The notes below the pieces were generated by a model. The model worked only from the letters and a program-made list of their open reading frames with translations. It made no database searches and was not told the origin of the DNA. Shown one piece after another: positions 32,913-39,482 of a DNA stretch of 39,482 nucleotides (the stretch's first letter is position 1; each line of letters begins with the position of its first letter). The stretch lies in NCBI GenBank assembly GCA_005843815.1, contig SZYA01000045.1, positions 1-39,482 of the forward strand, given 5' to 3'. The position numbers and the translations under genes are program-made. Source of the DNA: Chlorobium sp. Lineage in GTDB: Bacteria > Bacteroidota > Chlorobiia > Chlorobiales > Chlorobiaceae.

Positions 32913-34094
32913 ATGCACTCCCTTTACCTCAAGCCAAAAGAGCACCACCGGATTCAGAAAGGCCATCTCTGGGTGTTCAGCAATGAAATCGAAAACCTTC
33001 CCCGTGATATAGCCTCCGGCGAAACCGTCAAACTCTTTACCCACGATAAAATATTTCTCGGCACCGGCTTCTATAATCCCCATTCGCTCATCTCTGTTCG
33101 GCTACTTTCCCGCAAAGATGAAGAGCCTGACAAGAATTTTTTCCACAAAAAATTTTCTGAAGCGCTCTCTCTTCGTGAAAAGATTTACAACCAGAAAGAG
33201 ACCAACGCTTACCGGCTTGTCCATGGCGAGTCAGACGGTCTGCCGGGACTCATTGTTGACCGCTTCAACAAGGCAATTGTGTTGCAAGCTTTTTCGGCTG
33301 GCATGGATATTCACCTGCCACTGATCTGCGATGTTTTACAGGAGCTGCTCAACCCCGCAGTGATTATCGTGCGCAACGAGTCACCCCTGAGAGAGCTGGA
33401 GGGGCTGACGCTCCACAAAGATGTGGTGAAAGGCGAACGCTCCGAAACGGTGCAAACTATCCATGATGGAGGTATTACGTACGAGGTTGATCTGTTTGAG
33501 GGACAAAAAACAGGCTTCTTTCTTGATCAGCGTGAAAACCGCAAAATCATCAGAGCATTTTCAACGGGTGCGGATGTTCTGGATGTCTTTACCAACGACG
33601 GGGGCTTTGCCCTCAACTCCCTCTATGGAGGAGCACGCTCAGCCATTATGGTGGATGCTTCCAAACAGGCGCTGCAACGGGCAGACCACAACGCTCAACT
33701 GAACAAATTCTCAAACTACAGCCTTATTGCGGCCGATGCCTTCGATACACTTGATCAAATGGTGGAGTCAAAGGAGTCGTTCGACCTTGTCGTGCTTGAT
33801 CCGCCAAGCTTCACCAAAAGCCGCAAAAACCTTCCGGGTGCCCTGAAGGCATACAAACGGTTGAACAAACTGGGGCTGCAACTCTTGAGAAATGGCGGAT
33901 TTCTCGCCACGGCATCGTGCAGCCATCATGTATCGGAAGAGGATTTTCTGCAATCGATACACCAGGCTGCTCTTGCCGCCGACTGCCAGCTCAGGATGAT
34001 TCATAAAAACTCGCAGCCCTTCGACCATCCGGTACTGCTGGCTATGCCGGAGACAAGTTATCTCAAGTTCGCCTGTTTTTATGTAACACGCTGA
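32913..34094 (+). CDS. RlmI-like rRNA cytosine-5 methyltransferase
   Basis: A 393-residue protein with an N-terminal PUA domain (about 1-75, [15 protein letters not shown]) and a Rossmann methyltransferase domain. [15 protein letters not shown] is the SAM-binding motif I and [14 protein letters not shown] the catalytic motif with the aromatic-Pro. This layout matches RlmI (YccW), which methylates C1962 of 23S rRNA. The start at ATG 32913 places the PUA fold at the N-terminus; a TTG at 32874 is possible but gives an unneeded extension. The target base is inferred from the family. Confidence 0.85.
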
Positions 34095-34169
34095 ACCCGA
34101 AAGCGTAACCATACCGATTCCCCACTCTACTGGCAACCAGAATAGTGGGGATCATGGGGGGCATGGGGA

Positions 34170-34343
34170 TCACTTTGGAAGTTCAGAAATCGCCCCCCGC
34201 AGATACTCCACCGCCTCATCCAGAATCTTTATCGCCTGACGAATTTCATAATCGTCATCAGCATCATCCTTCGCTCTCTCCATCCGTCTTTTTGCATCCT
34301 GAATCGCATCTGCTGCAAGTTGCAGTTTTGAACCAATAGCCAT
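34170..34343 (-). CDS. 57-residue helical protein, unknown
   Basis: The ATG at 34343 has a perfect AGGAGAG ribosome binding site four bases upstream and gives a 57-residue product, MAIGSKLQLAADAIQDAKRR and onward. It is highly charged and helical, with repeated Ala, Leu and Glu/Lys spacing suggesting a coiled coil. A longer frame from 34394 lacks a ribosome site. The function is unknown. It is convergent with the methyltransferase gene. Confidence 0.7.
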   Translation of the reverse strand: MAIGSKLQLAADAIQDAKRRMERAKDDADDDYEIRQAIKILDEAVEYLRGAISELPK

Positions 34344-34449
34344 AACTCTCTCCTCTTGTTGATAATGGGGTTGCAGGTGTTGCATCATCCGCACTCATCC
34401 TCCAATCTACCACCAATTGAGGAAAAGTTTCTAATCCTGCTGCAGAAAA

Positions 34450-34869
34450 TTAGTTCTCTGACTCTTTGCTGAACGAAGAGAAAACCATAATCTTTCCGGC
34501 GCTGATAACATCGGCCACTGCGCCCGCAATATCGCCTTCGGTGAATTTTGCCGTAGCTCTGGCAGAATATGCCGTTGCTGATTTTGGATTCAGCTCAATA
34601 GCCTTCGTCAGGTCAGTAATGGCGCCCTTGTTATCTCCTGTGGCATATTTAACCGCGCCTCGACCAGCATAGACCTTCGCCGAAGTGGAGTCAAGTTTTA
34701 TCGCTTTTGAAATTTCAGTAATTGATCCATCCACAGCGGCACTGCCAATCTTTGCGCCCGTACTCAGCAAGCTGTTTTTTGACTCATCTGCCGCGTTATC
34801 GCAAGCTGAAAAAGTCATAACCATAAGCGCAATAACGGAAAAAAAGAGTGTTCGTAATGTTTTTTTCAC
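34450..34869 (-). CDS. TPR-repeat lipoprotein
   Basis: A 139-residue protein with a signal peptide and a lipobox, Cys23 in TFSAC. The mature part contains two tetratricopeptide repeats at about 58-91 and 92-125, for example AKVYAGRGAVKYATGD and SATAYSARATAKFTEGD. TPR lipoproteins act as adaptors for protein complexes in the periplasm. It follows the CDF transporter gene after 9 bases and is the third gene of a zinc-ribbon/CDF/TPR operon. Confidence 0.75.
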   Translation of the reverse strand: MKKTLRTLFFSVIALMVMTFSACDNAADESKNSLLSTGAKIGSAAVDGSITEISKAIKLDSTSAKVYAGRGAVKYATGDNKGAITDLTKAIELNPKSATAYSARATAKFTEGDIAGAVADVISAGKIMVFSSFSKESEN

Positions 34870-34878
34870 TGGCGACCT

Positions 34879-35901
34879 CTATTTTTTAAGAGTTGATGAA
34901 GCGTTGTGCTTGTGATTATTTGAAATGTTTTCAACCGTCCACTCTATGCTTCGCCTGAATTCGGCCTTGCGGACAGCACAGCTCTCCTTTCGACATATTT
35001 CACACGAAAAGTCAAGGCAGCCATCCGTATGGACCGATAACTCAATGTTCTCTCCCAAATTTTCATTGACCAGGTGACTGAGTTTGTCGATTTCCTGATG
35101 AGCTTCGTGAACATTGAGGTACCAGGGAACCGTCAAATGACAATCAAGATGGAGGGTACTGCCATACTTGATAATTTTCATGTTGTGAAGATCTATCCAG
35201 TTGTGTTCGCGATTTTTCTCCAGCAAGCTGACCATTGTTTTCAGTAACTCTTCATCAGCCTCATCCATAATTCCCCGGAGAGAGTCGCGAATAATCTTGT
35301 ACCCGGTATAAACGATAAGCAGGGCAAATATCAGGGCTACAACACTGTCGAGCCAGACCATCCTGGTAAAAAAGAGCAAAATCAGCCCTATAATGATACC
35401 AATCGTCGAGTAGGTGTCTGACTGCAGATGTTTTCCACTGGCAACAAGGGCAAGAGAGTTATTCTGGCGCCCTTTTTTTACGGCAATCGCGCCGACAAGA
35501 TAGTTTATTAGAGCGGTAACACTTATCAGAAGTATGCCATAATCAAGCTGGCCAATAGGCTCAGGAGTACCAAAAAGGTTTTTGATTGCCTCATAGATGA
35601 TGAGCAAACCAGCGCAGGCAATCAATGCTCCTTCAATGGCTGCCGAAATAAACTCTACCTTCCCATGCCCGTAAGGGTGGTCACTATCTTTTGGCTTTGC
35701 AGAGATATAGAGGCTGTACAAGCCAATAAAGGCGCTGGTAACATTGACGGTACTCTCCAGAGCATCAGTCAGAATCGCTACAGAATGAGTGATGTACCAT
35801 GCGGCCAATTTGATGACAAAAAGCAAAACACCGGTAACCGCAACAATCTTCTGAAAATCATAGTTTTGTTTTGCCTTTGTCATCGCAATACCACGCTCCA
35901 T
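34879..35901 (-). CDS. CDF-family metal efflux protein with Cys-rich tail
   Basis: A 340-residue cation diffusion facilitator with six membrane helices, which exports Zn, Fe, Mn or similar divalent ions using the proton gradient. HPYGHGKVEF between helices 2 and 3 is the family signature with metal-binding residues, and the C-terminal cytoplasmic domain forms the usual dimer. The end is unusual: Cys295, Cys300, Cys303 and Cys308 in CLDFSCEICRKESC form a metal-site-like cluster. The start could be 35901 or the ATG at 35883. It lies 24 bases after a zinc-ribbon gene and just before a TPR lipoprotein. Confidence 0.85.
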   Translation of the reverse strand: MERGIAMTKAKQNYDFQKIVAVTGVLLFVIKLAAWYITHSVAILTDALESTVNVTSAFIGLYSLYISAKPKDSDHPYGHGKVEFISAAIEGALIACAGLLIIYEAIKNLFGTPEPIGQLDYGILLISVTALINYLVGAIAVKKGRQNNSLALVASGKHLQSDTYSTIGIIIGLILLFFTRMVWLDSVVALIFALLIVYTGYKIIRDSLRGIMDEADEELLKTMVSLLEKNREHNWIDLHNMKIIKYGSTLHLDCHLTVPWYLNVHEAHQEIDKLSHLVNENLGENIELSVHTDGCLDFSCEICRKESCAVRKAEFRRSIEWTVENISNNHKHNASSTLKK

Positions 35902-35925
35902 TGTGTTAATAAAAATTACTGCTCT

Positions 35926-36222
35926 TTAGTCGAACAGTTCGCCAAGAAATCCAAATGCCCCTCCTTTTCTCTTTCTTCTTCCTGTTTTTGGATCAATATA
36001 ATAATCATGATCATCGTCATGGTGTCCATGATGTGAATCCTCTGTACGATACTCCCGACCATGATCCTCCTCACGCCCACGGGGCTGGGGAGCAGATCGT
36101 TCAATAATTTTATCCAGCTCACCCCGGTCAAGCCAGACTCCCCGACAAGAGGGACAATAATCAATCTCAATACCCTGACGTTCAGAAAGAAGCAAATCGG
36201 CATTGCAGGAAGGACATTTCAT
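35926..36222 (-). CDS. TFIIB-type zinc-ribbon protein with His/Asp-rich linker
   Basis: A 98-residue protein with Cys3, Cys6, Cys23 and Cys26 in a TFIIB-type zinc ribbon (PF13453), CPSCRGVWLDRGELDKII being the diagnostic segment. After it comes a low-complexity His- and Asp-rich tract, HHGHHDDDHDYY, then the basic end RKRKGG. The tract could bind extra metal. The function is unknown. It is the first gene of the operon with the CDF exporter and TPR lipoprotein, which suggests a role in metal handling. Confidence 0.8.
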   Translation of the reverse strand: MKCPSCNADLLLSERQGIEIDYCPSCRGVWLDRGELDKIIERSAPQPRGREEDHGREYRTEDSHHGHHDDDHDYYIDPKTGRRKRKGGAFGFLGELFD

Positions 36223-36532
36223 GGTACTCTCCTCGATTAGTTAATTCATTAGCAGAACAGTAACCTGTTTCTCTATTCTTGGTAAAAATATAACTGACCA
36301 AACCTTAAAGAAGTCGAAAGGCAAGCTTAAAAAATGGTTAAAAAGGATCATTGCATCTGCTGATGCCTGATAATATTTTTTTTCGCACATTGAAATCCTG
36401 TGAAACAATCTGGCATACCGGTGAGGATTGGTCCAGCGGCACGTTTATTTACTTTTCTCATGGTGTGTTTAGTTATGGCTATGGAGAATGCCTATCGATG
36501 CTTCTCATGTGCTTAACTCACAACGCGTACCT
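36223..36532. other. 310-bp gap before the VF530 gene
   Basis: AT-rich DNA that carries the promoter side of the zinc-ribbon gene. An open frame on the plus strand encodes MPDNIFFRTLKSC and onward for 63 codons, without a ribosome site or recognisable family, so I do not call it. No palindrome or RNA gene was seen. Confidence 0.35.
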
Positions 36533-36784
36533 TTACATCTCTTTCTTTTCTTGACCAATCAAGTCTTTATATATTGCTTCAATTTTTACCCTGGCCCAAC
36601 TTGTTTTTCGCAAGAATTTCAAGCTGGACTTAATACTTGGATCATTATAAAAACAACGAATTTCTATCATTTTATAGAGTTCATCCCAGCCATAGTGATT
36701 TACAAGATCACATAGTATTTTTTCAAGAGTTAATCCATGCAATGGATTATTCGGTTGATCAACTGAATTCGTAAATCGTTTCAT
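36533..36784 (-). CDS. VF530-family (DUF2132) DNA-binding-like protein
   Basis: An 83-residue protein. [20 protein letters not shown] then [20 protein letters not shown] and [14 protein letters not shown] are the complete VF530 signature, a small helical fold thought to bind nucleic acid. The family domain begins at NNPLHG, and the only in-frame ATG before it (36784) lies inside a truncated ATPase gene in another frame. The native 5' end may have been lost by recombination, and expression may depend on the ATPase transcript. No ribosome site precedes 36784. Confidence 0.8.
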
Positions 36785-37100
36785 CAATGAGGAGTTCGAA
36801 TGAAAAAGGTGAGGGCTTTGAGGCGCATTGCGTATCAAGGCGGAAGGTCTCGACGGGCATCAGGGCGTCGGGCAGTGTTCCCCTGACCACCAGATTTTTT
36901 GCAAAACTCAGCGCCTTGAAAAAGTTTGTCTTGCCTGAGGCATTGCCACCATATATAGCAGCGATCGGCAGTATCCGTGTCGAGTATTTTGCAACCTTTG
37001 GAACGCGCTCGCTATGCTGCCGTTCGCGGCTGGCAATTATGGATAAGGAGAGCGGCTCCATGAAGGAGGCCCAGTTTTCAAGAGAGAAATTGATTAACAC
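36759..37100 (-). pseudogene. Truncated AAA (AAA_15/21-like) ATPase
   Basis: The first 113 residues of an ATP-binding protein of the AAA_15/AAA_21 type. It begins [20 protein letters not shown] and has Walker A GGNASGKT near 51-58. Such proteins are usually about 400 residues, with a signature motif and Walker B that are both missing here. The frame ends at TGA 36761-36759, directly after ETIYEFS, where the family normally continues. The break coincides with the start of the VF530-like domain, so a recombination event removed the rest. The remnant cannot hydrolyse ATP. Confidence 0.78.
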
Positions 37101-37263
37101 AAGTGGCCTGTTTTATAAGACATAAATCACTCTCTGAGCCTTAAAATATTCTTTTGAGAAGATTATCCCTCTGTAAAAGAGAAAATTTCTCATGGTATTG
37201 AGTGATGGCGACCTGCTGGTGATTGACAAGGCGCTTGAGGAAGAGGAGCTGCGGGAGAAAATT

Positions 37264-37304
37264 CCCCTCCTCTGGAGGGGTGGCAGGCGAAACCTGACGG
37301 GGTG
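37264..37304. repeat. Double-hairpin palindromic element
   Basis: CCCCTCC-TCT-GGAGGGG at 37264-37280 is a perfect 7-bp hairpin and CAGG-CGAAA-CCTG at 37284-37296 a second one. GGGGTG follows. Elements of this form are frequent in intergenic DNA of green sulfur bacteria and some other phyla, according to my recollection; copy number cannot be checked here. It interrupts a short open frame. Confidence 0.5.
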
Positions 37305-37493
37305 ATCACAAAGGGAATAAAAATGTTTGGTTACTATGGGAAGCAGGGATGCGCGACTGCATGAAAAAGGCTGCTTTCAAACAGGCTTGGCAAATCATTC
37401 AAGGCGAAGGCTATTACTCAAAGGGAATTCAGAAATTTTATTTCGCATATAAAGAACCATTTAAAACTGTAACATACACGACATCCGCTTTGA

Positions 37494-37533
37494 GAGGGAC
37501 TTTTGCTACGCTGCCGCTCCGCAAAAGCCCCTC
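37494..37533. repeat. Inverted repeat, 13-bp arms with one mismatch
   Basis: GAGGGACTTTTGC at 37494-37506 and GCAAAAGCCCCTC at 37521-37533 pair at 12 of 13 positions with a 14-base loop. It lies within the relic region and near the end of a short open frame. It looks like another dispersed palindrome; no T run follows. Confidence 0.5.
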
Positions 37534-37671
37534 AAGCAAGGGTTAGCCATCATCGGATGCAGTCATGACGAAGACCACTGCCGCAATCGTGAGTAAAACC
37601 TTTGCGACAGCATTCACTTATTACTCGCATGAAGTCATCGAACTTACAATTTTGATACCAGGAGAATGTTT

Positions 37672-37881
37672 ATGATTGATCTTGTCATGGAGTTATCGCA
37701 GAAGTCCCAAGCACTTCGCCCAGAAGAACGAGCGCGTCTTGCGAAACTACTGCTTGAGGAGTTAGGCCAAACCTGGCTTTTGCGGAAAGGAAGAGGCTTG
37801 CCGTCTTGTGTTTCTTCTGTCAAAACCTTGCTTGTGTATGGAAAGATATGCCACGCTCTTTACAAGCCCCTGTTATTGTAA
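37672..37881 (+). pseudogene. Remnant of a RelB-like addiction-module antitoxin (PF09720)
   Basis: Starting at ATG 37672, seven bases after AGGAG, the first 34 residues read MIDLVMELSQKSQALRPEER and ARLAKLLLEELG, the helical start of the small antitoxins of the addiction-module component family. After ELG the sequence becomes QTWLLRKGRGLPSCVSS and onward, which does not fit the usual acidic continuation (typically a Trp, Glu, Ile and Arg-rich helix). The toxin gene is absent. The antitoxin has probably lost its C-terminal half by a deletion. The last 9 bases overlap the end of the convergent DUF3037 gene. Confidence 0.55.
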
Positions 37882-38793
37882 AGTATGTGCCTGGTGCTTG
37901 TTTATCCAGCTTGAAAATGGCTCAACACCTTTTTCCTTGACCTCTTCCAGGACATCGTTCATGAATTGTCGAGTATCAGAAACCTGAACAACCTCATAAG
38001 GCTTCTTGTCCGTAACTAATTCGATCAAGTTCAAGGCTTGTTTGGCCTCTTTTTGTTCGGCTTGCTTTTTGTCAAGAATAATTTTTTGTTCCTTTTTGCC
38101 CTTCTGATTACTGGAGCCATAAAGCTTATTCAAGCAATCGTAAAGGCTTATTGTTTTTGAAATATTTTCGGACAGTGTTGATTCAGCAGTATTGAGGTTC
38201 AGGATATGGCCGCAATAGATGGAACCGTTACCTCCAATAAAGTCAAGACGAATTTCAGGCAAAAGTATTTCTGTTTGCAACTCTTCTGACTCAAGCTTGT
38301 AATCAATATTCAGATAGTGTTGAAAATCGAAATTCTCTTTAGCCATTCTGCGAAAAGCTGTCGCAAAAGCATTGTTGCTTCTTGACGAGTTTGTTCTCTT
38401 CTCTTGTTTATCATCTATCAGCTTATGATACAACCTGTTAAAGCGTTGTTCCACAAGATCAGCGGCCGATTCGTCAGGGTTATCATGAGCAATGACAAGC
38501 GGCTTTGGCGCTGTGTAACGAATGACACCATTTTCGTAGACCGAAAGGTATTCAAGGTGTTTGACGTCAAGAGCATCCTGGCTCTTGACAAAACCTTCAG
38601 CTTGACGCATTGCGCTCTCAAGAAGTGAGGATTTTTCAATACCAAGGGCACGATTAATGAGATTCACCCGTTCCCGCGAAAAACGTACTTTTACTGCGCC
38701 GCTCTCAGGGCTAACCATGATTAATCCGATGCCAAAGTACTCCTCACGATCAGGATTCGGGGCGTATTTTACTGTTGTAAACCAGGTTTTCAT
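37873..38793 (-). CDS. DUF3037-like protein with long C-terminal extension
   Basis: Starting at ATG 38793 the protein has 306 residues. The first 130 (MKTWFTTVKYAPNPDREEYF, then GIGLIMVSPESGAVKVRFSR) match the DUF3037 pattern: an aromatic-rich strand, an acidic Arg-Glu turn, a Gly-rich strand and an ending NRLYHKLIDD-like helix. The remaining 170 residues are charged, with a Lys- and Gln-rich stretch near 230-250, and I recognise no domain. DUF3037 proteins often sit next to HipA-like kinase genes, which are not present here. A longer start at 38991 has a better ribosome site (AGGAG with three bases of spacing) but adds 66 residues that look like out-of-frame sequence. The function is unknown. 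Confidence 0.7.
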   Translation of the reverse strand: MKTWFTTVKYAPNPDREEYFGIGLIMVSPESGAVKVRFSRERVNLINRALGIEKSSLLESAMRQAEGFVKSQDALDVKHLEYLSVYENGVIRYTAPKPLVIAHDNPDESAADLVEQRFNRLYHKLIDDKQEKRTNSSRSNNAFATAFRRMAKENFDFQHYLNIDYKLESEELQTEILLPEIRLDFIGGNGSIYCGHILNLNTAESTLSENISKTISLYDCLNKLYGSSNQKGKKEQKIILDKKQAEQKEAKQALNLIELVTDKKPYEVVQVSDTRQFMNDVLEEVKEKGVEPFSSWINKHQAHTLQ

Positions 38794-38975
38794 GGTAACT
38801 TGATCTTTGCATCCTCTAAAAGCTGTTGATAGAAACCGCGAACCAAATTCTTTCGGGGTAACAAGTAGTGTTTTATAATCGATTCTTTTTCTGTGACTTG
38901 ACTTCCCGCCATTCCGATCTCTATGATTGGCCAATATACGATATCGGGGAAAGAACGGGTGGAAAAAGAAATCAC
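38790..38975 (-). CDS. Small ORF overlapping the DUF3037 5' end, possibly frameshifted
   Basis: This 61-residue frame ends in TGA that overlaps the DUF3037 ATG by four bases (ATGA), the usual sign of two coupled genes. Its sequence (AGSQVTEKESIIKHYLLPRK then NLVRGFYQQLLEDAKIKLP) looks like a real helical protein, unlike the frame it overlaps. The GTG at 38975 is a poor start. Removing one T from the run near 38960-38970 would join this frame to MSKLQSDFF, which begins at 38991 after AGGAG. I favour a frameshifted small gene, but a dual-frame artefact is possible. Confidence 0.4.
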   Translation of the reverse strand: MISFSTRSFPDIVYWPIIEIGMAGSQVTEKESIIKHYLLPRKNLVRGFYQQLLEDAKIKLP

Positions 38976-39067
38976 TTTGCAATTTACTCATAGGCTCCTG
39001 AATATTGAGAATGTTCGCATTTTTACTACATTATAAAAAACTGAAAATAAAAACAGGGGGAATATTC

Positions 39068-39482
39068 ATGGCAACGGTGCATGATGTTGCGCAGTATATC
39101 CTTGATCATGCTGGGGATATGTCAACATGGAAGCTGCAAAAGCTGGTCTATTATAGTCAGGCTTGGCACTTGGTTTGGGCTGATAAGCCGCTTTTTGAGG
39201 AGGCTATAGAGGCATGGGCTAATGGACCTGTTTCGCCATCTCTTTACGAAAAGCACAAGGGGTGTTTTACAGTATCAAGCATACACTGTGGCAATTCTGA
39301 AATGCTTACGGAAGATGAACGAGAAACGGTCGATAAGGTTGTAGCCTATTACCAACAATATAACGGCCAACAACTGAGCGACCTTACCCATGCAGAAACT
39401 CCATGGATGAAGGCACGAGAGGGCATGGCGTACAATGAGCGAGGCAAAGTGGAAATCACTAAGCGGTCGTTAATAAATAACT
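39068..39482 (+). CDS. Panacea-domain (DUF4065, SocA-like) protein, 3' end outside window
   Basis: The ATG at 39068 has GGGGG about seven bases upstream and opens at least 138 codons without a stop. WKLQKLVYYSQAWHL at 21-35, ANGPVSPSLY at 51-60 and LSDLTHAETPW at 103-113 are the diagnostic segments of the Panacea domain, an antitoxin module that pairs with many unrelated toxins. In SocAB it acts as a proteolytic adaptor. The partner toxin is either beyond the window or, less likely, encoded by the divergent DUF3037 gene 276 bases to the left. A complete domain needs about 150-170 residues, so only the C-terminal end is missing. Confidence 0.85.
   Translation, partial: MATVHDVAQYILDHAGDMSTWKLQKLVYYSQAWHLVWADKPLFEEAIEAWANGPVSPSLYEKHKGCFTVSSIHCGNSEMLTEDERETVDKVVAYYQQYNGQQLSDLTHAETPWMKAREGMAYNERGKVEITKRSLINN

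Follow-up and report, generated by a model that had tools for sequence, protein, structure and literature searches.

Adjacent Panacea and DUF3037 genes at a contig end of a green sulfur bacterium as probable remnants of two unrelated toxin-antitoxin modules

At the right end of the window, by which we mean the whole stretch of 39,482 bases analyzed here, a Panacea antitoxin-like gene on the plus strand lies next to a divergently transcribed DUF3037 gene, and the question is whether the two form a new toxin-antitoxin or defense pair, as a sequence-only reading had suggested. Both genes are real, but we consider it very probable that the site is the junction of two unrelated, partly destroyed, known toxin-antitoxin modules, a HipAD module with a deleted kinase and a PanAT module cut by an ISAzo13-like element, and an interaction between Panacea and DUF3037 is unnecessary to account for it. 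The window is one whole contig (C36) of an assembly of 1.9 Mb in 128 contigs (90% complete), most likely the metagenome-assembled genome of a green sulfur bacterium of the Chlorobiaceae; position 39482 is therefore the end of the contig.

The minus-strand side comprises two features.

37873..38793, minus strand: DUF3037 gene (PF11236), 306 aa, intact, the putative orphaned antitoxin-side gene of a HipAD/PDC-M66-type pair
38793..38894, minus strand: stump of a HipA-like kinase gene (PF20613), the last 34 of 271 codons (238-271), with the stop at 38790-38792

The DUF3037 protein matches PF11236 with 28.5 bits against a cut-off of 22.6, and its start is best placed at the ATG at 38793, giving 306 aa; a 372-aa frame (37873-38991) was rejected as an artificial N-terminal extension of this protein. 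The small ORF that had been reported to overlap the DUF3037 gene (38790-38975, minus strand) does overlap it; it is not a gene, however, but ends in the 34 C-terminal residues of a HipA_2 kinase, 32 of which (94%) are identical in the intact kinase of G030. The stump and the DUF3037 start share 4 nt, an overlap also present in intact relatives, where the whole kinase has 271 aa (PF20613, E=3.4e-21). DUF3037 orthologs occur in nine other genomes of the genus (62-83% identical), and eight of the nine loci have a HipA-like kinase gene, whole or partial, upstream of it on the same strand, usually with an overlap of about 4 nt; relatives in plasmids and viral contigs were not found. At the DNA level, homology of this module extends from about 37894 to 38907, an end point common to almost all relatives whose match reaches into the kinase. 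The stump and this homology edge together indicate that the kinase was deleted and DUF3037 orphaned.

Because the stump upstream belongs to a HipA-like kinase, we assign DUF3037 to the antitoxin side of a known pair. The combination of a HipA-like kinase and DUF3037 has been described as HipAD/DS-6 (PMC13092281), and in a HipAD system located beside Retron-Sda1 deletion of the kinase abolished defense, while deletion of DUF3037 was toxic (PMC12548924). The intact relatives share with HipAD/DS-6/PDC-M66 the same two genes on the same strand with the overlap of about 4 nt; their kinases match PADLOC PDC-M66A and their DUF3037 proteins match PDC-M66B weakly, and the DUF3037 protein of the window gave no match to PDC-M66B. 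By PF11236 the window has the DUF3037 component of this system, but only residues 238-271 of the adjacent kinase, which is intact in four relatives. By analogy with the published relatives, the window protein would act as an antitoxin.

The state of the kinase at the ten loci (the window included) follows a pattern consistent with the published antitoxin role of DUF3037. The kinase is whole at L040, L041, L045, and L047, carries a stop in L042, is truncated in L039, L043, L044, and the window, and is absent from L046, so that it is broken, stubbed, or missing at 6/10 loci while DUF3037 is full length at 10/10; every whole kinase found in the genus (101 genomes searched) was accompanied by DUF3037. 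This asymmetry of 6 to 0 (sign test p=0.03 if the losses were independent, the loci being related) agrees with the kinase as toxin and DUF3037 as antitoxin. Since the kinase decayed at six loci and DUF3037 at none, it might also be supposed that selection keeps orphan DUF3037 genes in Chlorobiaceae as stand-alone protectors against defense or addiction modules with HipA-like kinases, which we think rather unlikely. The wider form of this idea, in which the orphan DUF3037 of the window is functional in anti-addiction against incoming HipA-like kinases and the Panacea neighborhood is an island of protective antitoxins, draws on the same intact DUF3037 genes and on the lack of any intact kinase standing alone; it is similarly doubtful, as toxin-first decay is expected in any toxin-antitoxin pair without selection for protection, and the six losses, at related loci, are perhaps not all independent. 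At L042 and L046 the HipAD module immediately follows a gene for a possible type I restriction subunit of about 1000 aa.

On the other side of the junction the features are as follows.

38905..38948, no strand: filler at the junction of the two truncated modules (44 bp, 86% identity to G059)
38949..39067, plus strand: region upstream of the Panacea gene, common to G023 (blastn of 38949-39463 against L037, 96%)
39068..39463, plus strand: panA, a Panacea (SocA-like) antitoxin gene, codons 1-132 (PF13274; identity to G023 and G020)

The frame from the ATG at 39068 had been recognized as Panacea by its hallmark motifs WKLQKLVYYSQAWHL, NGPVSPSLY, and LSDLTHAETPW, all of which it carries, and it matches the Pfam family SocA_Panacea (PF13274) with E=4.1e-22 and 79.7 bits against a cut-off of 25.7. 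It thus has the Panacea/DUF4065 domain of PanAT, which SocA of SocAB also carries, but its score of 50.9 bits with the SocA model (NF047745) lies far below the equivalog cut-off of 190. The gene is 96% identical to that of G023 and 93% to that of G020, both of the same genus, and the comparison with these genomes shows a majority of synonymous substitutions (8 vs 3 and 20 vs 7 codons), which indicates that it was under constraint until recently. Homology begins at 38949 with G023 and at 39043 with G020, and the region 38949..39067 is the probable promoter region of the gene; a promoter scan returned only weak consensus matches, barely above those in shuffled sequences. Close relatives of this Panacea protein were not found in viral contigs, and searches of solved structures by sequence with Panacea and its partner toxin yielded nothing useful. 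The 44 bases of 38905-38948 match neither module past its edge and resemble a stretch that precedes a different Panacea gene, in G059. From the homology edges at 38907, 38949, and 39463, the neighborhood is a mosaic of a HipAD remnant, a short filler, Panacea, and an insertion sequence.

The suspicion that the usual same-strand partner of Panacea lies beyond the edge of the window was well founded in that the relatives have one. In G020 a gene of 153 aa follows on the same strand 11 nt after the Panacea stop codon, and in G023 the same partner starts and breaks after about 50 codons. A scan for the partner over genomes of 84,980 species revealed, in a planctomycete, a Panacea gene of 144 aa followed 4 nt past its stop by a partner of 147 aa. 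On Rhizobium plasmid pTH2b the Panacea gene overlaps its partner, which is 24-35% identical to partners of the G020 and planctomycete type, and a single-protein scan of viral contigs found the same Panacea-then-partner order in two of them. Of 394 genomes in the phylum, 18 match a profile of the partner, and at 15 loci of the phylum the partner comes directly after the Panacea domain on the same strand, the two domain matches being 75-209 bases apart, though some of these loci helped to build the profile, the independent ones being those of G010, G369, G294, G262, G391, G302, and G357 together with a second copy in G020. Since this operon recurs in relatives, we conclude that the partner of Panacea is the downstream family and not DUF3037. 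As in PanAT, the operon of the relatives is antitoxin-first, same-strand, and closely spaced, encodes a small toxin-like protein, and is conserved across phyla; in the window, by contrast, panA lacks the last ten codons and no toxin follows it. The toxin gene is absent from the window's assembly, which is 90% complete, and was either lost or left unassembled.

What emerges as a by-product is a conserved, apparently uncharacterized family of Panacea partners, antitoxin first, in Chlorobiota, Planctomycetota, a Rhizobium plasmid, and viral contigs. The partner belongs to no Pfam family. MAG6450 (NF046006) ranked first for each of the four partners tested, always below its cut-off, the best with 27.7 bits (E=3.1e-6) against 40; judged by sequence, the family is therefore related to MAG6450 without being a member by that cut-off. 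Both partners tested against PHROG 8366, a family of unknown function, match it. A structure model of the partner, of medium confidence (pLDDT 67, pTM 0.63), shows helices followed by a C-terminal sheet, and its most frequent Foldseek neighbors are RelE, ParE, and YafQ toxins, none of them significant (best E=0.35); a viral fold library gave no significant match. On account of these weak RelE-type structural matches and the predicted secondary structure, we tentatively favor a RelE-like mRNase that would stop translation over other mechanisms, although such an activity is somewhat less than an even prospect. Stand-alone Panacea antitoxins neutralize their toxins by direct binding (Kurata et al., 2022, PMC8832971; Kurata et al., 2023, PMC10440598), and by analogy the intact Panacea proteins of the relatives most likely neutralize the downstream toxin in the same way. 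The partner at L064:5004-5447 is also similar to the last 80 residues of PADLOC NsnC (E=2.8e-6), and its domain may accordingly recur in larger defense proteins.

How the Panacea gene came to be cut is indicated by the last bases of the contig.

39464..39482, minus strand: 19 bp, the probable outer end of an ISAzo13-like insertion sequence (all 19 bases recur in G030, and all but one in G006)

Homology to both G023 and G020 ends at 39463, after codon 132, so the frame is true Panacea only up to this base and the last 19 bases (39464-39482) are foreign to the gene. The relatives end in KVEITKESLAEYYGSL and a stop codon, while the window reads KVEITK up to the break and RSLINN after it, with the last ten codons of the relatives lost. 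In both G030 and G006 an ISAzo13 transposase ORF ends immediately before the 19-mer; the ORF of G030 matches the C-terminus of this transposase (PF07592/NF033519, E=3e-38) and that of G006 is nearly identical to it. The three copies of the 19-mer, in the window, G030, and G006, diverge just beyond the end of the element. If the frame of the window is extended through the G030 copy, a tail of about 45 residues coded by the insertion sequence replaces ESLAEYYGSL. The window shares the 19-bp terminus with copies that carry the transposase, but no transposase was found in its assembly. Searches of this 90%-complete assembly for the transposase C-terminus and for the far side of the Panacea gene found neither elsewhere, and we therefore infer the insertion step from the 19-bp terminus by itself. 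From the identity of these bases with the outer end of an ISAzo13-like element, an insertion most likely interrupted Panacea, separated it from its toxin, and ended the contig.

The divergence of the last 19 bp could instead be an assembly error at the contig tip, with Panacea intact in the real genome and the full PanAT operon beyond the edge. Contig tips are indeed error-prone, and the mostly synonymous substitutions in Panacea, with the constraint until recently that they imply, fit such an error. The 19 bases are not random, however, but equal the terminus of an insertion sequence that lies beside ISAzo13 transposase ends in two genomes, and even though a mixed-strain assembly is possible, the sequence appears genuine; we therefore judge this improbable.

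In the reading that we prefer, that of two broken modules, the left one would be of the HipAD type, its kinase toxin deleted save for the last 34 codons and its DUF3037 antitoxin orphaned. The right one would be a PanAT module with Panacea first, followed on the same strand by a toxin of about 150 aa, in the order seen in relatives. An ISAzo13-like element would have inserted between Panacea codons 132 and 133 and severed the toxin, the contig ending inside the repeat, whose course beyond the 19 bp we infer. A rearrangement would have placed the remnants of two separate systems side by side. Neither module is expected to work as a toxin-antitoxin pair in the window.

A count across the phylum bears on the proposed pairing directly. 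Among 394 genomes DUF3037 occurs in 86, Panacea in 91, and both in 24 against 19.9 expected (Fisher p=0.25); the two families co-occur at the chance level. Only in the window and in G014 do they lie within 10 kb of each other, and the Panacea gene of G014 belongs to another subfamily, is separated from DUF3037 by about 4 kb and other genes, and is followed immediately by a same-strand neighbor of its own. A divergent Panacea gene beside DUF3037 was found at 0/9 of the other related DUF3037 loci, and G020 and G023, the closest Panacea relatives, have no match to DUF3037. The idea of a new divergent toxin-antitoxin or defense pair, with DUF3037 or the small overlapping ORF as the toxin, can point to the adjacent, divergent genes of the window and to both families on one contig in G014, but it is hardly credible, as the adjacency is a two-sided homology break, each gene has a conserved partner elsewhere (a same-strand toxin-like gene following Panacea in relatives), co-occurrence shows no excess, the small ORF is a kinase stump, and published genetics make DUF3037 an antitoxin (PMC12548924). 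There is nothing new in the pairing, then, since both genes belong to known systems, and the finding is an ordinary one. Its use is to keep a false new pair out of toxin-antitoxin catalogs, as inference from gene neighborhood would here join two antitoxin genes that a rearrangement alone has brought together.

Several minor observations concern the surroundings. No RNA families were found in 34000-39482, and matches to aegerolysin, cytochrome b6f, and VHS fell below cut-off and were dropped. An AAA_21 ATPase remnant of 113 aa (36759-37100, minus strand) matches part of AbiLi (PADLOC, E=3e-21) and of AriA; the remainder of the protein is absent, and it is thus another broken defense gene, 1 kb from the HipAD remnant. 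A dispersed palindromic repeat (ATTCCCCTCCTCTGGAGGGGTGGCAGGCG...) lies at 37231-37310 and recurs on three further contigs of this genome. The 174 bp at 37583-37756 contain the start of an ORF (37666-37881) that resembles a small addiction-module antitoxin and has no Pfam match; they are 93% identical to stretches in G018 (L058) and G050 (L060), two loci that also carry short fragments of the Panacea-partner toxin.
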